Of a DNA stretch of 64,000 bases, positions 38,615-49,722 are shown in pieces. Source of the DNA: a bacterium (GTDB taxonomy: Bacteria; Zhuqueibacterota; QNDG01; JAFGCO01); NCBI GenBank assembly GCA_016932575.1, contig JAFGCO010000071.1:62001-126000 (forward strand), written 5' to 3'. The notes under the pieces were generated by a model. It saw only the letters and a list, made by a program, of their open reading frames with translations, searched no databases and was not told where the DNA came from. The stretch's first letter is position 1, and every line of letters starts with the position of its first letter. Both the position numbers and the translations under genes were made by a program.

Positions 38615-40660
38615 ATGAGTCCACGAAAAAAAATATCGATTCAGCCTGTGACCTTGTTTGTGGTGACCCTGATTCTGCTCACGATGTTTTCTGTATTTGC
38701 CCTCATAGAGTTTTTTCAATCCAAGCATGAGATTCTGAGTATCATGGAAGATGAAGGGCTTGTTTTACTGGATGCGCTGATGGCGGGAGCGGAACGTTCT
38801 GTCCTGGCTTATGAGGCACTGGAATCACAGATGCAAAACCGGTTGATGGATCATGCCTATGCATTTGAAACTTTTGACTATCATACATATCTGAATCCAG
38901 AAAAAATTAACGCGCTGGCGACGACGTTCAATCTGTTCCGGATTGAGATCCTGAATACCCGGGGTGTAAGCATATTCAGGAGTGGTGCGGATTTGCCGGC
39001 AAAAATCGATGATACGCAGTTGATCCCGAAGTGGCTGGCTCCGCTTTTTCATGGAAACGGTGATTCTGTGTTGACTGGATTCGGCGAAGGGAAATACGGC
39101 CGAAATTCAAGATATGCCGTGGCTGTTCGGAGACGCCGGGGCGGCGCAATTGTTGTGGATGCCGATGTTATGGTTTTACTCGAGATGCGTCGGGAAGTCG
39201 GCCCTGGTCGTTTTGTGCAGGAAATCGGAAGCCGGTCGGGCGTGGTCTATGTTGTGCTTCAGGATACGCTTGGCATACAGATGGCCAGCCGCTCTGTACA
39301 GCAGATCAGTTCAATTCTGAAGGATCCCTTTCTTCTCAGAATTTTTCAGGAACATGGACAGGCTTCCCGCATTGCTTCTTTTAATCATCAGGAAGTGTTT
39401 GAAATAGCGGCTTCCTTTCATGTTGAGGATCAGCAGATCGGTTTATTTCGCATTGGTTTGACCATGAATGCTTATCGGAGCCTGATGAAAAGCGCCCGCA
39501 TCCGGCTGTTGTTTATAGGAATCAGCCTTCTTTTTCTCGGGATTGTGGGATTTGCTCTTGTCGTGGTCACTCAGAATGTTCGGCTGCTTTCAGAATCTTA
39601 TAAACAGATACAAACACATACCGGTGAAATTCTTCAGAATTTGGAGGATGCAGTGGTGGCCGTGGATGGTGCCGGAATAATCACCGTATTTAACAGCGCC
39701 GCGGAATCTATCTATCAATTGCGAAGGGATACTGTGATTGGAACCCGAATTTCTGAATATTCACTGTCGTGCTTTGAATTATTGAAAGAGACATTAACAA
39801 CAGGAGAACAAATCAAGGCACAGGAAAACCAATGTGAAATTCAAAATCAGCAGCTGATTCTGAGATTGAGTACATCTGTTATTCGGAATTCCTCGAAAAT
39901 CATTGATGCAGCCATCCTGGTCGCCTCTGATATTACAGAGCAGAGACAACTGGAAAAACAATTACAAAGACAGGAGAAATTGCAGGCCATGGGTGCATTG
40001 GCCTCCGGTGTTGCGCATGAAGTCAGGAATCCCATAAATGCCATCGGCATGATTGCCCAGAGATTTCAGAAAGAATTTCAACCTAAAAAAGACTTGAAAG
40101 AATATCAGAAACTTACCCGGGCGATGCGTGAAGAAGTCGGACGAATTAACGGCATCATTCAACAATTTTTGGAGTTTGCAAAACCGCCGGCGTTACAATG
40201 CAGAATCCTTTCTATTGAGAAATTATTTGATGATGTTCATGCCGTTTTTAATAGCAGCGCTACTTCCAAGAAAGTCATTTTCGAAGTTAAAGTCAATGAC
40301 CAAGTAGTGCTTGACATGGACTTTGATCAGATGAAGCAAGCGCTTCTTAATCTGCTCAATAACGGATTGGATGCCTGCCGGCCCGGAGACCGGCTCAATA
40401 TGTCCGGTTACCTTGAGAATCAGTCTTATATCATTGAAATAAAAGATACAGGACGCGGTATTCCGGAATCAGAACTCGGCCGGATTTTTGATCTTTACTA
40501 TACAACAAAGGCAGAGGGTACGGGTATAGGATTGCCCATGGTGGTTCAGATCATTCAAGGACATGGAGGAACCATCGAAGTGCACAGTGAACTGAATCAC
40601 GGCAGCTGTTTTAAAATTCGGCTGCCCTGTCAATCCCAAGGAAAAAGTGCCAAAAATTGA
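38615..40660 (+). CDS. NtrB-type sensor histidine kinase
   Basis: 681 residues. Two membrane helices (about 12-34 and 300-322) enclose a 265-residue extracytoplasmic sensor domain; then a PAS domain (about 335-450, ILQNLEDAVVAVDGAGIITVFN), HisKA with the phospho-acceptor His468 in GVAHEVRNPINAIG, and HATPase_c with LLNNGLDAC (N box), DTGRGIPESELG and GTGIGLPMVVQIIQGHGG. The next gene, a sigma-54 response regulator, starts about 80 bp downstream and is surely its partner. The stimulus is unknown. Confidence 0.93.
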   Translation: MSPRKKISIQPVTLFVVTLILLTMFSVFALIEFFQSKHEILSIMEDEGLVLLDALMAGAERSVLAYEALESQMQNRLMDHAYAFETFDYHTYLNPEKINALATTFNLFRIEILNTRGVSIFRSGADLPAKIDDTQLIPKWLAPLFHGNGDSVLTGFGEGKYGRNSRYAVAVRRRRGGAIVVDADVMVLLEMRREVGPGRFVQEIGSRSGVVYVVLQDTLGIQMASRSVQQISSILKDPFLLRIFQEHGQASRIASFNHQEVFEIAASFHVEDQQIGLFRIGLTMNAYRSLMKSARIRLLFIGISLLFLGIVGFALVVVTQNVRLLSESYKQIQTHTGEILQNLEDAVVAVDGAGIITVFNSAAESIYQLRRDTVIGTRISEYSLSCFELLKETLTTGEQIKAQENQCEIQNQQLILRLSTSVIRNSSKIIDAAILVASDITEQRQLEKQLQRQEKLQAMGALASGVAHEVRNPINAIGMIAQRFQKEFQPKKDLKEYQKLTRAMREEVGRINGIIQQFLEFAKPPALQCRILSIEKLFDDVHAVFNSSATSKKVIFEVKVNDQVVLDMDFDQMKQALLNLLNNGLDACRPGDRLNMSGYLENQSYIIEIKDTGRGIPESELGRIFDLYYTTKAEGTGIGLPMVVQIIQGHGGTIEVHSELNHGSCFKIRLPCQSQGKSAKN

Positions 40661-40742
40661 TTTCATATTCCTTGAGTGGATTAAGGCAGCTGATCATGTC
40701 TTATTTTCACATGCTTCAATTTATTTAACGGAGGCATTTCTT

Positions 40743-42104
40743 TTGGAAAAGCATACTATCCTGATTGTGGATGATGAATCTATTCAGCTTGAGACATTAT
40801 CCGGATATTTAAAAAAGAACCGGTCTTATCATGTGTTACAGGCAAATAACGGAGAAGAAGGCATTCAAATGATTCAGGAGAATCAGATCGACCTCATTCT
40901 CACCGACATGAGGATGCCCATTATGGATGGATTTGCCCTCCTCAATGCCACTCGGCGTATCAATCCGGAAATATCTGTTGTGGTAATGACCGCTTTTAGC
41001 AGCGTTGATGATGCCGTCAAGGTAATGAAAGCCGGGGCTGATGATTATTTGCAAAAACCGGTTGATCTGGATCAGCTGGATTTGGTTCTGGACCGCGTTT
41101 TGAAAAACAGGCGGTTAATCAGTGAAAATCTGACATTAAAGAAAGCATTGCAGACCCGTGTTGAATTCAGTCAAATTATTGCCGCCAGTCCGCAGATGGA
41201 GGATGTGCTGAACATGGCAGGACGAGCTGCCCGAAGCCGGGCGACCGTACTGATCCGCGGGGAGAGCGGAACAGGCAAAGAAGTGATGGCTAGAGCCATA
41301 CATCTGGCCAGTCCCAGAAAAGAAGAACCCTTTATCACTATGAATATGGCTGCTGTTCCGGAAAATTTAATTGAGAGTGAACTTTTTGGACATGAAAAGG
41401 GTGCCTTTACCGGGGCGGACCGGCAGAGAAAAGGCCGGTTTGAACTGGCAGATAAGGGAACACTTTTTATCGATGAGATTGGCGAAGTACCAACCGCCAT
41501 ACAGGTTAAATTGCTACGTGTGCTCCAGGAACAGACTTTCGAACGCGTCGGCGGAAGCACAACGCTGAATGTGGATGTCCGTGTTGTGGCTGCAACCAAT
41601 CAGGACCTGGAAATGTTGATTCAGGAGGGACGTTTTCGGGAGGATTTATTTTATCGGTTGAACGTGGTTTGTTTAAAATTACCGCCGCTGCGGGAACGCC
41701 GCCAGGAAATTCCCCGATTTGTGGATCATTTTATCCGTAAATATGCTGTCGAAGAAGAACATCCATTAAGCGGTATTTCCAAAGAAGCTTTGGATATTTT
41801 AATGAAGTATGATTATCCGGGCAATGTACGGGAACTTGAAAATATTATTCACCGTGCAGTGGTGATGACCCGGGAGGACATGATTATCACTCAAGATCTC
41901 TCTCCGGCCGTACTGGGCCAGAAAGAAAAACCGAGATCTGTTCAGTCAAGTGATGATCTGATCAGTCAGGTCGAAAATTTGGAACATCGCTTGATTCGTG
42001 ATGCCTTGTCGTCCTCTGAGGGGAATCAGAGCCGTGCTGCACGTTCTCTTGGAATTTCAGAGCGACATTTACGATATAAGTTGAAGAAGTATGGAATGAA
42101 GTGA
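40743..42104 (+). CDS. Sigma-54-dependent response regulator (partner of 38615-40660)
   Basis: Receiver with Asp55 in DLILTDMRMP, AAA+ domain with Walker A GESGTGKE, GAFTGA loop, Walker B GTLFIDEIGEVP, and a Fis-type helix-turn-helix (GNQSRAARSLGISERHLRYKLKKYG). The frame is open from 40647, but the receiver begins right after TTG 40743, which has GGAGG at 40730-40734; so TTG is chosen. It likely drives the sigma-54 promoters at 44053 and 44841 (inference from proximity). Confidence 0.92.
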   Translation: MEKHTILIVDDESIQLETLSGYLKKNRSYHVLQANNGEEGIQMIQENQIDLILTDMRMPIMDGFALLNATRRINPEISVVVMTAFSSVDDAVKVMKAGADDYLQKPVDLDQLDLVLDRVLKNRRLISENLTLKKALQTRVEFSQIIAASPQMEDVLNMAGRAARSRATVLIRGESGTGKEVMARAIHLASPRKEEPFITMNMAAVPENLIESELFGHEKGAFTGADRQRKGRFELADKGTLFIDEIGEVPTAIQVKLLRVLQEQTFERVGGSTTLNVDVRVVAATNQDLEMLIQEGRFREDLFYRLNVVCLKLPPLRERRQEIPRFVDHFIRKYAVEEEHPLSGISKEALDILMKYDYPGNVRELENIIHRAVVMTREDMIITQDLSPAVLGQKEKPRSVQSSDDLISQVENLEHRLIRDALSSSEGNQSRAARSLGISERHLRYKLKKYGMK

Positions 42105-43016: not shown

Positions 43017-43889
43017 ATGTCAATCACAGAATACATCCAGAATAAAATATTGACTTTTCAGAAAAATGAGATTACAGAGTATCACATTTATATGAAATTG
43101 GCCGGTGCTGTTCGTCACCCTGAAAACAGGGCCCTTCTGGAAAAAATCGCAAATGATGAATTGCGCCATTATCAGTTCTGGAAGTCAATTTCGAATAAAG
43201 AAATTTCTCCTAGCCGTTGGAAATTATGGAAATATTATCTGATCAGCCGGATTTTCGGATTCACCTTTGGAATCAAACTTATGGAAAACGGGGAAGAAGA
43301 TGCCCAGGAAGCCTATCTTGAACTTAAGGAGCATTATCCCAAGGTCAAAGACATTATTCAGGATGAAAATGAACATGAAGATGCATTGATTCAGCTCCTG
43401 AATGAAGAAAAACTACAGTATATTGGTTCCATTGTTCTCGGATTGAATGATGCGCTGGTGGAACTTACAGGCGCCCTTGCCGGTTTTACTCTGGCTCTAC
43501 GGGATACCGGCCTGATTGCTTTAACCGGAATGATTACCGGCATCGCGGCTGCTTTGTCAATGGCCGCCTCCGAATATATATCCAAAAAATCCGAAGATAC
43601 ACTTAAGCATCCCCTCAAAGCCTCCCTTTACACAGGCATTGCGTATTTGCTTACAGTGATTATTCTGATTTTTCCTTATCTGATTTTAAAAAACTATTAC
43701 TTATGCCTCGGATGTACATTGATCGCAGCAGTGATGATTATTGCGTTCTTCAATTATTATATCTCGGTGGCCAAAGAAATCCCATTTAAAAAACGCTTTC
43801 TCGGGATGGCCGGACTCAGTCTGGGGGTTTCTGCATTCTCATTTTTAATCGGGTATTTGATGAGATCCGTTTTAGGTGTTGATATTTGA
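43017..43889 (+). CDS. Ferritin-like/VIT1 fusion (MbfA-like iron or manganese exporter)
   Basis: 290 residues in two parts. Residues 1-125 are a rubrerythrin-like four-helix bundle with metal-ligand-type E/H pairs: EITEYHIYMKLA, NDELRHYQFW and DENEHEDALI. Residues 130-290 are a VIT1/CCC1 membrane domain: GLNDALVELTGALAGF, MAASEYISKKSE and three hydrophobic helices. This is the layout of membrane-bound ferritin A (MbfA), which protects cells from iron and peroxide. The match is to family layout; the metal is not proven. Confidence 0.88.
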   Translation: MSITEYIQNKILTFQKNEITEYHIYMKLAGAVRHPENRALLEKIANDELRHYQFWKSISNKEISPSRWKLWKYYLISRIFGFTFGIKLMENGEEDAQEAYLELKEHYPKVKDIIQDENEHEDALIQLLNEEKLQYIGSIVLGLNDALVELTGALAGFTLALRDTGLIALTGMITGIAAALSMAASEYISKKSEDTLKHPLKASLYTGIAYLLTVIILIFPYLILKNYYLCLGCTLIAAVMIIAFFNYYISVAKEIPFKKRFLGMAGLSLGVSAFSFLIGYLMRSVLGVDI

Positions 43890-43933: not shown

Positions 43934-44052
43934 TTGTTCGTCTTTCCTGTCGAATTTGCCGACCATATTGTCTGAAAAGGTCATTAATTCTTTGATCAGT
44001 CATCAGGCTATCTGAATTGATTATTAAGAAATTACGTCTATTTCAAATATTT

Positions 44053-44068
44053 TGGCACGGCCGTTGCT
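44053..44068 (+). promoter_or_regulatory. Sigma-54 promoter upstream of the TSP3-loop protein
   Basis: TGGCACGGCCGTTGCT is a consensus match: GG 44054-44055, GC 44066-44067, 10 bp between. A small dyad GTCG-N7-CGAC (43949-43963) lies about 100 bp upstream and could hold an activator. Confidence 0.88.
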
Positions 44069-44112
44069 TTACAGGCAGACAGTAAGCGAAACGATAAATC
44101 ACAGGAGGAATC

Positions 44113-44577
44113 ATGAAACGCTTTTTATTTTTTCTGATTACGACTGCAATCTTGTCCGGCAGTATCAATTATCTTCAAGCTCAGGACAGTACTCAGGTGC
44201 AGACCAAAACTCACGGTGCCAATTTTGTAGACGAAGATGGTGACGGGATCAATGATAATCGGCAGGGTGCGGGAGGGCAAGGTCAGGGTCAGGGAGCAGG
44301 CCAGGGACAGAAATCCGATCGTGGTTTTATTGACCTGGACGGCGACGGATTAAATGACTGGGCTCAGGATGCTGATGGTGACGGGATTCCGAACGGTCAG
44401 GATGAAGACTATGTCAGCCCCGAAAACGGTAACGGCAGTTCAAATCAACAGGGAAGCGGCAAGGGGCGCCGGGGAAATGGTGCCTGGCAATCCGGCCAGA
44501 ATTCAGGTACCGGTGATTGTGACGGATCCGGAACCGGTCAGGGAGGCGGACGGCGCAGAGGACGCGGTAAGAAATAA
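44113..44577 (+). CDS. Secreted calcium-loop (TSP3-like), Gly/Gln-rich protein
   Basis: 154 residues. Signal peptide (ending YLQAQ), then thrombospondin type 3/EF-hand-like D-x-D-G-D-G-x-x-D loops: DEDGDGINDN, DLDGDGLNDW and DADGDGIPNGQDEDY, which bind calcium in related proteins. Between and after them are Gly-Gln-Ser-Asn-Arg stretches (GQGQGQGAGQGQK ... GGGRRRGRGKK). ACAGGAGG precedes the ATG. Own sigma-54 promoter and terminator. Small secreted proteins with this plan occur in FCB environmental genomes, function unknown. Confidence 0.75.
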   Translation: MKRFLFFLITTAILSGSINYLQAQDSTQVQTKTHGANFVDEDGDGINDNRQGAGGQGQGQGAGQGQKSDRGFIDLDGDGLNDWAQDADGDGIPNGQDEDYVSPENGNGSSNQQGSGKGRRGNGAWQSGQNSGTGDCDGSGTGQGGGRRRGRGKK

Positions 44578-44600
44578 CAAACTTGTTTTGTTCCGATTAA

Positions 44601-44632
44601 AAGCAGGACGATGGTCATTGTCCTGCTTTTTT
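44601..44632 (+). terminator. Rho-independent terminator after the TSP3-loop gene
   Basis: AAGCAGGAC (44601-44609) pairs with GTCCTGCTT (44620-44628), then a T-run. Confidence 0.92.
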
Positions 44633-44707
44633 ATTATGAATTTTATTTGATCATATTTAATATCGGTTAAGATATTGTTTAATGAAGCTTATGATAAATT
44701 CCAAGGT

Positions 44708-44747
44708 TTCGACTTCTTGGACGAGACGTCTCGACGATTTTGTCGAA
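44708..44747. promoter_or_regulatory. 40-bp symmetric dyad, candidate enhancer site
   Basis: TTCGAC, 8 bp, CGAGACGTCTCG (perfect palindrome 44722-44733), 8 bp, GTCGAA: three nested elements with the same centre. It lies about 95-135 bp upstream of the -24 box at 44841, the usual position for a sigma-54 activator, and after the terminator of the previous gene. Confidence 0.65.
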
Positions 44748-44840
44748 GAATGATAAAGAAGATTGACAGTGAAATCTGAATTACTAAATAAAGTATATGT
44801 TTTTTAGAGAGTTAGAATATTAAAAAATTGTCACAATAAC

Positions 44841-44856
44841 AGGCACAGTGATTGCA
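44841..44856 (+). promoter_or_regulatory. Sigma-54 promoter upstream of the BIG2 adhesin
   Basis: AGGCACAGTGATTGCA: GG 44842-44843, GC 44854-44855, 10 bp between; -12 box ATTGCA. It lies about 50 bp upstream of the start codon. Slightly weaker than the sites at 9318 and 44053. Confidence 0.78.
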
Positions 44857-44907
44857 TGATGATGCTTCTGAAATCACGAAAAAAATTAAAATTGAAAGGA
44901 GTTCATG

Positions 44908-46668
44908 ATGAATCAGGCAAGCAAGGGACTACAAATCGGAGCTGCTGTTTTTCTCAGTGTATTGTTGTTCTCATTCAGTGTATGGGCGCAGGGGGATACG
45001 CAAGGCAGATCAAAAAAGCAATATGAGATTGAAATCATCCCGGCTCAAGTTGAAGTCGATGCGGAAGAAACCGTTCAGTTTACGGCTCAGGCACTGAACC
45101 GTGAAGGGGCTGCCGCGGAAGTGGAGATCGAGTGGAGTGTGCTGAATAAAAGGGTGGGTGAGATTGATGAAAATGGACTGTTCACTGCAATTGCAGGCGG
45201 ACATACGCATGTTATCGCGCGGGCAGGAAGGTCGGTGGGTAAAGCTGAAGTGATTGTTCGACGTGATTCTGTTCAAAATCAGAACCTGCGGCAGGGATTA
45301 CGTGTGGTAATCAGTCCGAACAGTGCCATCATGGATGCCGGAGAGACTTGCCAGTTTTCTGCGAGCCTTGTCGACAGCAGCGGAGAGACTCTGGAAGCGG
45401 CATTCGACTGGGGTGTTGACGGGGATTTCGGCATTGTGGATGAAACCGGATTATTTGAAGCACTGGAAGCCGGACGCGGATTTGTGTATGCTACAACGGG
45501 TGATATCAGCGGTCGTGCGCATGTGGTCGTCATGAATGAAAACGGAAACCATGGCGCCATGAACTCTGCCAAACGGGGTACCAAAATGGTTCTGGTTCCC
45601 AACGACACCATTGTCCTGATTGAAAATGTTGTTCAGTTTCAGGCTTTTCTGGAAGATACCCTTGGAAACCAGAGTGAAGTCTATCCTGAATGGGAAATGG
45701 TCGGCAGGGATGTCGGCTCCATTGATGAAAGCGGACTCTTTACAGCCAGTACCGCCGGAAACGGTGTTGTCAAAGCCAGCTTAGAACGATATACAGCTAC
45801 TGCAAGGGTTCGTGTGGCCACAACCGAAGATACGGCCAATGCCAAAAATGTTGAATTTAAAATGAAGAAGCGGGACGGGGAGCAGATCGGCAATATGAAA
45901 CGAATCAAGGAAACCGATGTTTTTAAGATCAGCGGCATGCCGTTCCCTCTTAATCTGCTCAACGGCGCAGAGGTCACCTTGCCTGCCGGCGCTCTGGAAC
46001 AGGATATCACTATCGATGTTTCCATTCCAAGTATTGCCGGTGTCAAAGATACCACGGTTTCCCTTCCAGAAGCAATATTGAACGGAATCTCTTTCGATGT
46101 TTATGTGGATGGCGAGCTGGTCAGTCCTTTTGTGTTCGACGAACCCGTGCAACTGGTCATTCCTTACAAACAGGAAATGATGAACGATATGGGGCTCACA
46201 TTGGATGATTTATGGGTGTTTTTCTATACGGACAAGGACGGGTATGATAGCGACGGCCTCTTCAATATTTATGTGGACACCACCGAGAATAAAATTATTG
46301 TAGAAGTCAGCCATTTTTCCGAGATTGTAATCGGTGACAAAAAATTGGCCGGTACAACCGGTGTCGAGTCTCAGGTTACACCCGATGATTATGCCTTGTA
46401 TGCCAATTATCCCAATCCATTTAATCCGGTTACGTCGATCCGATTTTATGTGAGCGGAACACAAATGCAGCATCTGACGCTGACTGTGTATAATCTGCTG
46501 GGACAGAAAATCCGGGTATTGACGGATCGTGAATTTGCCCCGGGTTTCCATCAATTAAAATGGGATGGTACCAACCAGCACGGTCAAAGCATGAGCTCAG
46601 GTGTTTATCTGTATCAGTTGGAAGGTCAAAACCTGAATCTTTGCCGGCAAATGGTTCTGATTCGATAG
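44908..46668 (+). CDS. Secreted BIG2 (bacterial Ig-like) surface protein with sorting tail
   Basis: 586 residues. Signal peptide, then three Ig-like group 2 repeats, each with 'GETCQFSA'/'EETVQFTA' and 'G.IDE.GLFTA..AG...V.A' (about residues 35-115, 130-210 and 225-300), then a 120-residue domain with beta-rich DUF-like content (LPAGALEQDITIDVSIP is ZU5/autoproteolytic-like), and a C-terminal sorting tail YANYPNPFNPVTSIRFYV ... GVYLYQLEGQ ... MVLIR as in T9SS-like cargo. ATG 44908 gives a 6-bp gap from AGGAG; ATG 44905 is also possible. Probably cell-surface bound. Confidence 0.82.
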   Translation: MNQASKGLQIGAAVFLSVLLFSFSVWAQGDTQGRSKKQYEIEIIPAQVEVDAEETVQFTAQALNREGAAAEVEIEWSVLNKRVGEIDENGLFTAIAGGHTHVIARAGRSVGKAEVIVRRDSVQNQNLRQGLRVVISPNSAIMDAGETCQFSASLVDSSGETLEAAFDWGVDGDFGIVDETGLFEALEAGRGFVYATTGDISGRAHVVVMNENGNHGAMNSAKRGTKMVLVPNDTIVLIENVVQFQAFLEDTLGNQSEVYPEWEMVGRDVGSIDESGLFTASTAGNGVVKASLERYTATARVRVATTEDTANAKNVEFKMKKRDGEQIGNMKRIKETDVFKISGMPFPLNLLNGAEVTLPAGALEQDITIDVSIPSIAGVKDTTVSLPEAILNGISFDVYVDGELVSPFVFDEPVQLVIPYKQEMMNDMGLTLDDLWVFFYTDKDGYDSDGLFNIYVDTTENKIIVEVSHFSEIVIGDKKLAGTTGVESQVTPDDYALYANYPNPFNPVTSIRFYVSGTQMQHLTLTVYNLLGQKIRVLTDREFAPGFHQLKWDGTNQHGQSMSSGVYLYQLEGQNLNLCRQMVLIR

Positions 46669-46678
46669 TATAATATCG

Positions 46679-46703
46679 GGAGGCAGCTTCTGCGGCTGCC
46701 TCC
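46679..46703 (+). terminator. Hairpin between the BIG2 gene and the next TSP3 gene
   Basis: GGAGGCAGC pairs with GCTGCCTCC (9 bp, 7-nt loop), followed by ATTTTACTT. Partial terminator; the downstream gene has no obvious own promoter and may be reached by read-through. Confidence 0.65.
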
Positions 46704-46746
46704 ATTTTACTTGATTTTCATATTCTTTGGAATTATTTTAATAATT

Positions 46747-47391
46747 ATGAAAACAATTTTATACATTATTTTCGCTTATTTTCTGCTTTATGCATTCAGC
46801 TGGGGGCAGGAAAATATGATAGTTGGTTTCGAAGATACCGACCACAACGGTGTGAATGATCATTTCGCAGATGCCGACGGGGATGGGATGAATGATGTGG
46901 ATGGCCGGCCATATGAACATACTTTCCAATTTCAGGATAAAAACAAGGATGGAAAAAATGATCTCTGGGCAGACGCAGATGGCGACGGGGTGAATGACTT
47001 GTTGAGTCATTTTCAGAAAAAAGCCTGGATTGACATCAACGGCGACGGGATCCAGGACGAAGGCACAGGCGTGCTTCGGGGGCAAGCGCTTAAAAAACAT
47101 GTGTTGGATACAAATCAGGATAATATCAACGACATTACAGGTGAAAGAATTACCAGTACATCACTGGGCGGTTATAAATTGGGCCGGGTAAATGAAGAAA
47201 ATGGTATGCCGGATCGTGGGTTTTTGGGAAATGATGGAGATAGAATGAATGACCGGTCAGCTGCCGGAGTCTCGGAAAATCAGCGGGGCCGGGATATGGA
47301 TGTATTCATTGATCAGGATGGAGATGGCATTGCGGATGGACGGGGTCTCGGGCGGTTTAAGACAAAACAACGGGGCAAAAACAATCAATAG
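46747..47391 (+). CDS. Secreted protein of TSP3-like calcium-loop repeats
   Basis: 214 residues. Signal peptide (ending FSWGQ), then about eight D/N-rich loops: DTDHNGVNDH, DADGDGMNDVDG, DKNKDGKNDL, DADGDGVNDL, DINGDGIQDE, DTNQDNINDI, NDGDRMNDR and DQDGDGIADG. The loops are the calcium-binding unit of thrombospondin type 3 repeats. The tail is basic (GRFKTKQRGKNNQ). Frame opens at TTG 46711; ATG 46747 begins the signal peptide. Weak ribosome site. Confidence 0.72.
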   Translation: MKTILYIIFAYFLLYAFSWGQENMIVGFEDTDHNGVNDHFADADGDGMNDVDGRPYEHTFQFQDKNKDGKNDLWADADGDGVNDLLSHFQKKAWIDINGDGIQDEGTGVLRGQALKKHVLDTNQDNINDITGERITSTSLGGYKLGRVNEENGMPDRGFLGNDGDRMNDRSAAGVSENQRGRDMDVFIDQDGDGIADGRGLGRFKTKQRGKNNQ

Positions 47392-47398
47392 CGGATCA

Positions 47399-48784
47399 AT
47401 GGCTATGTGGATGCACAACTGCCTGTCAGCGCGATGGGCATTTTTTGTATGTGTTATTATCGCCTTTGGTGTGCCGGTTTTGCAGGCTGGCTTCAACGCA
47501 GATATCGCTGCATGGGTTGTGCAGGATCGGAATGCTTTTCAGAATTATGAGCAACTTTCCGATGTGATTGTTCAACCTTCTTTGACACTGACTTATTCAA
47601 GAACCTGGATCAATACCCGTTTGCAGTTGTTCTATGAAGGATCTCTTTCTTTTTTTCAAACCTATTCAGAACGGCAATATCAGACCCACTATGGCGGATT
47701 CGCATTTCAGCAGTATATTGGAGAGACCGGGCCCGTGCTGTCTGCCGGACTGCAAATCGGTCAGCGGGCCAACAGGGATTCATTGTATGCTTATTATGAT
47801 TATTCCCACCAGATTGGATATTTTAATGTAAGAAAACAATGGGGCAATTCGGCGATGTCTTTGCTGGGAATATGGATGCAACGACGGCATTATCAGGAAT
47901 GGCAGTCTTTTAATCAACGGGAAATGCGGATTTTTTTTCAGCAAAGCCTGTTTTTACCTTCGCGAACCACAGTGATTGCACGTATTCAGCTGGGGAATAA
48001 AAAATTTCTGAATTCCAGGGTGAATGAAATCGACTTAGAGGAAAAATTTGAAGAAGAATGGAACGCGCCCGTTAACCGGAGTCAGGGTCAACGCCGAGGC
48101 AACCAAGACGGTACTGATCAGGAAAACAATGACAGCAATGATGATGTGAATACCAACGGCAATGGAAGTGATAGAGGAAATGGAAGCGGAAATGGACAGG
48201 GAAGTCTCAGCCGAGATGCGGGACGTTCGGTATCGTTTATAAATACAACAATTGATACGATCGGAAACCAGGTTCGTTTTGAGATTCCAGGAGAAGAAGT
48301 ATTGCAATGGGTTTTTTCCATTCGAATTGCGCAGTCCATCCATGAAAATACCGGGGTGGCCGTTGAAAGCAAGTGGAGGCGACGGGCGGACGGCCACGGG
48401 CGGTTTTTACTCTATCAGGATTCCGGGTATGAGGAGGATGATCCTCTTTTTGATGATGTGTACAGCTATGAGAGTGATGCTTTATCCGTTGAGGTCACCC
48501 AGAAGTTACCCTGGCGGCTGTTGTTCAGAGGAGGCTGGCGCACTGAAAATAAGTTTTATGACTACCTTGCGCAGGATTTGGAAGGCAATGTGATCGCAGA
48601 CAGTTTATTAAAAGAAGACAACCGTCAACTCTTCTGGGCGACAATTAGCAGGCGGTTTTCAATGGGTGCTGTCAAGCGTGCTGAAATTTCCATATCCTAC
48701 AATTATATTGATAACCAGTCCAATGAACCGTATTCGGATTACAGGGATCAAGTCCTGTTATTTGGATGGAGTTTTGGATTTTAG
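47399..48784 (+). CDS. Outer-membrane barrel-like protein with Asn/Gly-rich insert
   Basis: 461 residues. Signal peptide (about residues 12-30, VCVIIAFGVPVLQAG), then alternating amphipathic strands (PSLTLTYSRTWINTRLQLFYEG, SAGLQIGQRAN, LFGWSFGF as final strand), consistent with a barrel. A low-complexity insert (DGTDQENNDSNDDVNTNGNG and GNGSGNGQGS) lies in the middle, probably an exposed loop. The frame is open from 47249 but overlaps the previous gene; ATG 47399 lies 7 bp after that stop. Likely outer-membrane partner of the TSP3 and BIG2 proteins (inference). Confidence 0.6.
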   Translation: MAMWMHNCLSARWAFFVCVIIAFGVPVLQAGFNADIAAWVVQDRNAFQNYEQLSDVIVQPSLTLTYSRTWINTRLQLFYEGSLSFFQTYSERQYQTHYGGFAFQQYIGETGPVLSAGLQIGQRANRDSLYAYYDYSHQIGYFNVRKQWGNSAMSLLGIWMQRRHYQEWQSFNQREMRIFFQQSLFLPSRTTVIARIQLGNKKFLNSRVNEIDLEEKFEEEWNAPVNRSQGQRRGNQDGTDQENNDSNDDVNTNGNGSDRGNGSGNGQGSLSRDAGRSVSFINTTIDTIGNQVRFEIPGEEVLQWVFSIRIAQSIHENTGVAVESKWRRRADGHGRFLLYQDSGYEEDDPLFDDVYSYESDALSVEVTQKLPWRLLFRGGWRTENKFYDYLAQDLEGNVIADSLLKEDNRQLFWATISRRFSMGAVKRAEISISYNYIDNQSNEPYSDYRDQVLLFGWSFGF

Positions 48785-48807
48785 TCCATGTCGCTTAAAA
48801 TCTTTTC

Positions 48808-48836
48808 TTGACAATATCCTTTTTTCAGATTAATAT
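48808..48836 (+). promoter_or_regulatory. Sigma-70-type promoter before the lipoprotein-like gene
   Basis: TTGACA (48808-48813), 17 bp, TAATAT (48831-48836), about 65 bp upstream of the start codon. Confidence 0.8.
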
Positions 48837-48900
48837 ATTCCATGTTTAAACAGACGCATTGTTCTTGTTATTATTACCCTGTAATCTGGAGGAGGTACAT

Positions 48901-49722
48901 ATGAAAAGAATATCAATCCGATGTATCGTGATCTTTGCAATCGTTATCTCACACCTTTTCATTATTGTCTGCGAAAAAAATCCTTCGGAATCTGAAAATA
49001 CGCCACCTGTCATGCCTCCACAGGAATCGATGATGATCGACCTGTCGAATTTTTCAGTTGGGGGAAATCAGTCTTTGAATAAATCGTCTCTTCCGCAAGC
49101 CAAGACGCACTTTGGCCTGGCTGTACTAACATTGGGCCTGGTCAATATTTCAGTCATGCTGCATCTGACAGTGCCAGTTTACATTTTTGGCCGTGCACTT
49201 CTGGAGAAACCCGAGCTGCAATCTGACGGTAAATTTCACTGGACTTACTCCACTGTCTATCAACTTTTCAATTATGAGGCGGATTTGGCCGGGTGGGTTG
49301 ATGTGTCCGAAACAGAAGTCAATTGGGAGATGTATGTCACGCAAGCAAAGCGCGGACTCGATCATTATCGGTGGTATGACGGCCATTGTAATCTTGATGC
49401 CACAGCAGGAGACTGGACATTTTACGACGCGTCTCAGCCGGATCAGCAAAATCCGGTCATTCAGATTAATTGGCAGATTCAAAGTGAGACTGACCGCTCT
49501 CTGGTATTCGCGAATATTTTTGAAGGCGATGAAAATATTGGTGACCAGCTGATCTATCAGATCGACGGGGATTCCGCCAGGGTGCAGTATTTGGATGCCT
49601 CTGAAGGGACAACCGCAAAAATTGTGTGGAACACGGAGACCATTGCCGGATATATCCAGGCGCCCAACTATAATGAGGGGAAGCCCGGGCGCTGGGATGA
49701 GAATCAGGAGGATATGAATTAA
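48901..49722 (+). CDS. Putative lipoprotein, unknown function
   Basis: 273 residues. The N-terminus ISHLFIIVCEKNPSESEN looks like a lipoprotein signal (Cys near residue 22), though Val at -1 is unusual. The body is a beta-rich globular domain without recognised motifs (VYQLFNYEADLAGWVDV, INWQIQSETDRSLVFANIFEG). GGAGGAGG precedes ATG 48901; the upstream frame from 48859 is not supported. Own sigma-70 promoter; convergent with nqrF. Confidence 0.6.
   Translation: MKRISIRCIVIFAIVISHLFIIVCEKNPSESENTPPVMPPQESMMIDLSNFSVGGNQSLNKSSLPQAKTHFGLAVLTLGLVNISVMLHLTVPVYIFGRALLEKPELQSDGKFHWTYSTVYQLFNYEADLAGWVDVSETEVNWEMYVTQAKRGLDHYRWYDGHCNLDATAGDWTFYDASQPDQQNPVIQINWQIQSETDRSLVFANIFEGDENIGDQLIYQIDGDSARVQYLDASEGTTAKIVWNTETIAGYIQAPNYNEGKPGRWDENQEDMN

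Follow-up and report, generated by a model that had tools for sequence, protein, structure and literature searches.

A conserved cassette of predicted surface-protein and outer-membrane barrel genes with a dedicated sigma-54 switch in Zhuqueibacterota and Ignavibacteria/Bacteroidota

In the PrsKR/PEP-CTERM system of Proteobacteria, the phylogenetic profile of a conserved activator site matches that of a kinase/regulator pair (PMC1569441), and exopolysaccharide is retained in flocs by a PEP-CTERM protein that depends on RpoN (PMC9850573). Here we compare with this system a locus from KSB1, a lineage proposed as the phylum Zhuqueibacterota (PMC11683472). The locus lies in a stretch of 64,000 nucleotides, hereafter the window (assembly GCA_016932575.1, contig JAFGCO010000071.1, positions 62,001 to 126,000 of the forward strand), taken from a 4.4-Mb genome in 72 contigs. 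Genes are lettered by their starts in the window: A (44113), B (44905), C (46747), D (47399) and E (48901). A, B, C and D form a cassette, and its core of A and D, together with a dedicated NtrB/NtrC pair with a double Cache (dCache) sensor, recurs across KSB1 and in some Ignavibacteria/Bacteroidota. The protein families and the cassette look undescribed; no published description of the cassette was found in the literature searched, which took in few subscription papers. A previous sequence-only reading had proposed an inducible, possibly calcium-stabilised surface coat or appendage at this locus. Its observation is confirmed in a stronger form than was claimed, while its interpretation is partly supported.

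Conservation of the cassette and its regulator pair

The cassette genes and the upstream regulators are as follows.
44113..44577, + strand: gene A, a predicted secreted Gly/Gln-rich protein of 154 residues with three DxDxDG loops, adjoining D in most orthologous loci
44905..46668, + strand: gene B, with three BIG2 domains, FlgD_ig and a predicted type IX secretion system (T9SS) C-terminal sorting tail, SprA being encoded in the same genome
46747..47391, + strand: gene C, a predicted secreted protein of 214 residues with six DxDxDG loops
47399..48784, + strand: gene D, a predicted 16-stranded outer-membrane barrel with a 97-residue Asn/Gly-rich extracellular loop
38615..40660, + strand: NtrB-type sensor kinase with a dCache-like extracytoplasmic sensor, PAS, HisKA and HATPase domains (Pfam)
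40647..42104, + strand: NtrC-type sigma-54 activator with receiver, AAA+ and Fis-type helix-turn-helix domains (Pfam)

Conservation was followed in 59 KSB1 genomes, 32 of them D-positive and 27 D-negative, and in 119 genomes of the class of an Ignavibacteria metagenome-assembled genome (MAG), where D is present in 32, some of these being diverged paralogs. At most D-centred loci A precedes D, and B or C is added at some, with relatives of C adjoining D at 8 of the 32 KSB1 loci fetched for D. An NtrB/NtrC pair adjoins in about half of D-centred loci, in several orders and orientations, and the same cassette is found in Ignavibacteria and other Bacteroidota MAGs. The cassette genes are thus not scattered in relatives. 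Neither of the two outcomes that the sequence-only reading had named as refuting it, unconserved sigma-54 boxes and scattered genes, was seen. Conservation across phyla, in turn, argues that the module is important.

The NtrC protein scores over the cut-offs for Response_reg, Sigma54_activat and HTH_8, which identifies it as an NtrC-type activator, and is 52-64% identical to the NtrC of orthologous loci. For the NtrB sensor, AlphaFold2 predicts a double Cache fold (predicted local distance difference test score, pLDDT, 84), and Foldseek matches the model to the dCache domains 3lif, Tlp3 and DctB. The sensor domain alone tracks D, being found in 30 of the 32 D-positive KSB1 genomes and 1 of the 27 D-negative ones (p 2.4e-13, a value that assumes independence of genomes despite their relatedness); in both D-positive genomes without the sensor, the contig that carries D breaks off close to the locus. 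D has been gained or lost within families, and because single families contain both D-positive and D-negative genomes, simple relatedness does not explain the co-occurrence. Together with the conserved enhancer described below, this pattern strongly supports the earlier proposal that the pair (38615-42104) is the natural controller of the locus. The best named matches are AtoS and ZraS for NtrB, and AtoC and ZraR for NtrC. Unlike ZraSR/AtoSC-type pairs, however, the window proteins all fall below the equivalog cut-offs and have other target genes.

Sigma-54 promoters and a tandem enhancer

The regulatory features of the cassette are listed here.
44052..44068, + strand: predicted sigma-54 promoter of A, TTGGCACGGCCGTTGCT, 61 nt upstream of the ATG and kept before A in relatives
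44840..44856, + strand: predicted sigma-54 promoter of B(-C-D), CAGGCACAGTGATTGCA, with one mismatch in the -24 element but supported by the enhancer 109 bp upstream
44599..44630, + strand: intrinsic terminator after A, with a 14-bp stem
44709..44746, + strand: tandem enhancer, TCGACTTCTTGGACGA and TCGACGATTTTGTCGA, 22 bp apart
43938..43974, + strand: enhancer pair upstream of A, TCGTCTTTCCTGTCGA (one mismatch) and CCGACCATATTGTCTG (three mismatches), 21 bp apart

Both promoters named by the sequence-only reading stand as predicted sigma-54-dependent promoters. The boxes at 44052 and 44840 score 19.0 and 15.0 bits in the matrix, carry the -24 GG and -12 GC with 10-bp spacing, and are conserved in orthologous loci; rpoN is found in the window's genome, where exact TGGCACN5TTGCW sites number eight among the matches listed. 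The terminator after A suggests that A is probably monocistronic here, which explains the separate promoter for B-C-D. A further hairpin is found in the B-C interval.

Upstream of the sigma-54 boxes lies the dyad TCGAC-N6-GTCGA, usually in two copies 20-22 bp apart. When tested on the same loci where the motif was found, and against a control set of 215 genes or regions, 17 of 34 A genes, compared with 6 of 215 controls, have a sigma-54 site scoring 13 bits or more no farther than 350 bp away (Fisher p 1.7e-12), and an enhancer site with at most one mismatch occurs at 18 of 22 A-type promoters compared with 10 of 215 control regions (p 1.8e-16). Three further A genes (L053, L055 and L073) have the sigma-54 site inside a miscalled start. 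The spacings between enhancer and promoter cluster in phase with the helical repeat (R about 0.5, p about 0.005). Over whole KSB1 genomes, a profile of the tandem site (R1), built from some of the genomes later searched, finds a match in 27 of the 32 D-positive genomes and 1 of the 27 D-negative ones, mostly at the cassette. The phasing and the whole-genome profile provide independent support for the enhancer. In the window's own genome, positions 44709-44746 are the only strong match to the profile (E 9.7e-6). The 40-bp dyad reported earlier at this place is thus real, although it consists of two tandem operator-like sites rather than a single dyad. The pair upstream of A is a diverged copy, supported by its occurrence at the same position as in relatives. 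The dyad is the presumptive binding site of NtrC, and the switch as a whole (promoters, enhancer and dedicated pair) is well supported.

Given that surface genes are common in this genome, with 150 T9SS-tail matches, and that the enhancer copies upstream of A have diverged, the locus could in principle have arisen by accident, its surface-protein genes and promoter-like strings being common and merely happening to lie together. Such an accident is contradicted by the gene order, promoter, enhancer and sensor kept across phyla, and we regard it as extremely improbable.

The cassette proteins and their neighbours

A and C are predicted to be Sec-type secreted proteins, and by sequence they are loop-repeat proteins with Gly/basic tails. 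The DxDxDG loops, with a median of four among A relatives and six to eight among C relatives, probably bind calcium. The earlier description of two thrombospondin type 3 (TSP3)-like proteins is borne out as regards the loops (three in A, six in C) and not as regards membership, as no curated calcium-family profile from Pfam and other collections scores over its cut-off. The tandem loops resemble TSP3, dockerin and EF-hand-like calcium repeats, from which A and C differ in their Gly/Gln/Arg-rich linkers and basic tails. Many A members share a conserved C-terminal GTGxCDGTGPKG tail. A comparison of A with solved structures gave no useful match, and a PADLOC run on A, C, D and E returned none. 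Judged by the loop sequences, a coat built from these proteins could be calcium-stabilised.

B had been read as a BIG2 adhesin with a T9SS-like tail, and this description holds: its three BIG2 domains and FlgD_ig all score over the Pfam cut-offs, and the sorting tail reaches 26.0 bits against TIGR04183 (cut-off 23), although it stays below the cut-off of 27 for Pfam PF18962 (22.5). With SprA (SprA_N) also found in the genome, B qualifies as predicted type IX secretion cargo.

D matches no Pfam or NCBIfam family model. Its AlphaFold2 model is a 16-strand barrel (mean pLDDT 81.5) in which the Asn/Gly-rich stretch is an extracellular loop, in agreement with the earlier prediction; sidedness was set by the usual rule that both barrel ends are periplasmic. 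Leaving aside the Asn/Gly loop, the extracellular loops are better conserved than the strands (p 6e-4) or the periplasmic turns, whereas the difference is not significant when that loop is included. Conserved loop motifs include NxFxNY, YYDY, DDPYxY and SNDPYYDY. As the outward-facing loops of barrels are usually variable, their conservation in D makes a conserved extracellular partner likely.

One possible partner is A itself. D may translocate A (and C) in the manner of SLAM/type XI secretion, with the A tail or calcium-triggered folding outside the cell driving export. The constant, adjacent core of A and D, the conserved outward loops of D and the A tail all fit such an export pair, as does the weak resemblance that 9 of 27 D proteins bear to SlipAM, the SLAM barrel family (best E 1.7e-7). 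The likeness to SLAM/type XI (SlipAM, DUF560) thus lies in this profile similarity and in an outer-membrane barrel beside a small secreted partner. In contrast, the D model has 16 strands, no TPR domain was found in D, the window D has no SlipAM/DUF560 match, and Foldseek favours generic porins. Judged by sequence, A and C also lack the hallmark of known type XI cargo, an 8-strand barrel at the C terminus (PMC12282271). The cassette therefore fails the defining features of type XI secretion, and we consider a dedicated export pair doubtful. Identification of D as SLAM or as a specific PDB porin was rejected, the matches being weak or generic.

Neighbouring genes do not belong to the cassette. 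The lipoprotein-like gene E (48901-49722), which the sequence-only reading had included, lies outside the unit because it has its own sigma-70-type promoter (TTGACA-17-TAATAT) and no relative at orthologous loci; its lipobox is weak. Between NtrC and A, positions 43017-43889 encode a fusion of a rubrerythrin-like domain with a VIT1-type membrane domain that resembles iron/manganese exporters. The ABH and VIT genes of this interval were rejected as members, since they have no relatives at other D loci, with the sole exception of a weak ABH match in L046.

Enhancer-linked genes in relatives and comparison with known systems

In relatives, the enhancer precedes further A genes and also genes of other kinds. 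T9SS-tailed multihaem cytochromes (L134:1862-3799 and L131:1167-3203) adjoin the cassette enhancer and a sigma-54 box, and at L133 a c554/NapC-like cytochrome gene lies at the enhancer with a 20-bit sigma-54 box. An operon of a small Cys-containing exported protein, a Tat-polyferredoxin, an outer-membrane barrel and a NapH-like membrane ferredoxin (L132:4583-8019, L128:390-4037 and L130:2281-4060) is headed in each case by a perfect TCGAC-N6-GTCGA; it is seen in full in G009 and G041 and in part in G049, and looks like an undescribed electron conduit. At L121 a 4Fe-4S gene at the enhancer adjoins a multihaem cytochrome. DUF2202 proteins, one with a T9SS tail and one lipoprotein-like, are encoded beside the enhancer or within an A-D operon (L125:1137-1805, L127:989-2245 and L076:1273-1947). 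A genes also lie near MMPL/RND-type exporters at L049, L051, L139 and L064, the last two also being near cytochrome c'-like proteins. Because several of the enhancer sites have no recognised sigma-54 box, their genes are regulon candidates. The regulon in relatives thus seems to include surface redox proteins, beyond what the sequence-only reading had envisaged.

This content bears on an alternative in which the function is extracellular electron transfer or metal handling: redox state or an electron acceptor would set off the switch, A and C would bind metal ions or minerals, and D would be a conduit or porin. The cytochromes at L131, L134 and L133, the polyferredoxin operons at L128 and L132 with the related cluster at L130, the 4Fe-4S gene at L121, the DUF2202 genes at L125 and L127, and the VIT/rubrerythrin gene beside A in the window are all in keeping with it. 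However, these redox members are scattered, each in few genomes, whereas A and D are constant; the window's genome has a single strong enhancer match, at the cassette locus; and no haem motif occurs in the window's A, C or D. We regard this alternative as quite unlikely.

A second alternative makes D an exopolysaccharide exporter or anchor porin, like AlgE or PgaA, with A-C as matrix proteins holding the polymer. In its favour, a conserved cluster in Ignavibacteria (L163, L164, L165, L168 and L177) encodes a DUF2334 protein of ~1300 residues, a processive GT2 synthase and, after them, a D-like barrel, and is probably a synthase-dependent exopolysaccharide system comparable to PgaABC and alginate AlgE. 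AlgE is also among the Foldseek matches of D, and one D protein matches TIGR03016, a PEP-CTERM-associated outer-membrane protein (E 7e-4). Homologues of the DUF2334/GT2 pair occur in the KSB1 genome G052 (L179:610-7028), preceded by a tandem enhancer and a sigma-54 box of 20 bits; together with the Ignavibacteria cluster, this arrangement is among the evidence for the surface-matrix reading set out below. Unlike the synthase-dependent systems, the A-D cassette has no synthase or other glycosyltransferase. The D-like barrels share only ~26-29% identity, and neither the window's genome nor most D-positive genomes have the DUF2334 protein. With that protein in only 8 of the 59 KSB1 genomes and not tracking D, an exopolysaccharide synthase was rejected as a constant cassette partner. 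We find this role for D unlikely.

We give about an even chance to the reading of the locus as a self-contained, switchable surface-matrix or coat module comprising NtrB/NtrC, the enhancer, sigma-54, A and B-C-D. The computation supports the gene set, promoters, enhancer, dedicated pair and barrel fold, whereas NtrC binding, calcium binding, an interaction of A with D, the coat function and the signal are inferred. The earlier idea of an inducible coat or appendage at the surface is a plausible one. In the proposed mechanism, the dCache sensor kinase NtrB would detect an extracytoplasmic signal and phosphorylate NtrC, which would bind the tandem TCGAC-N6-GTCGA sites ~70-135 bp upstream of the -24/-12 promoters and activate RNA polymerase-sigma-54, switching on A and, in the window, separately B-C-D. 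A and C, both Gly/Asp-rich and with DxDxDG loops that probably bind calcium, would be exported through Sec and would work with the 16-strand barrel D, the conserved outward loops of which probably dock or export them. Type IX secretion would sort B to the surface, and the end product would be a coat or matrix, to which in some relatives the same enhancer may add surface cytochromes or an exopolysaccharide synthase.

Several points weigh against this reading. About 40% of A genes have no clear sigma-54 box, the co-occurrence p-values carry the independence assumption given above, A and C score below every curated calcium-family cut-off, and the D model and its Foldseek matches fit an exporter, a porin or an anchor alike. 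An exopolysaccharide operon lies under the enhancer in only 1 of the 59 KSB1 genomes, and the DUF2334 protein, present in 8 of the 59, does not track D. Several of the extra regulon candidates are redox proteins, which would suit a role in respiration no less than one in a coat. A bolder formulation sees in A-D an outer-membrane system for assembly or secretion, so far undescribed and shared by KSB1 and Ignavibacteria/Bacteroidota, whose 16-strand barrel with its conserved outer face exports or anchors calcium-folding Gly-rich proteins under its own dCache NtrB/NtrC switch and conserved tandem enhancer. It is tentative, and we lean against it.

For phyla that lack close genetic models, the locus offers a surface regulon that is defined and predictable, made up of a DNA site, a pair of regulators, and A and D as two protein families without a good Pfam or NCBIfam model. 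The enhancer can also serve as a handle to find more surface and electron-transfer genes.

Among described systems, the cassette is best read, by analogy, as working like the PrsKR/sigma-54/PEP-CTERM matrix system. It is not a member of that system, because the window NtrC scores 420 bits against a PrsR cut-off of 502.6 and A, B, C and D have no PEP-CTERM match. It differs further in its dCache-like sensor (that of PrsK is described as novel), in its KSB1/Ignavibacteria host, and in the use of T9SS in place of exosortase for B. In both, however, a dedicated histidine kinase and a Fis-type sigma-54 activator would drive secreted surface or matrix genes, often as single-gene units; a conserved activator site lies tens of bp upstream of -24/-12, a likeness in placement; and site and regulators share a phylogenetic profile. 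This parallel suggests that placing matrix proteins under a sigma-54 switch of their own has arisen, or has spread, more widely than has been recognised.

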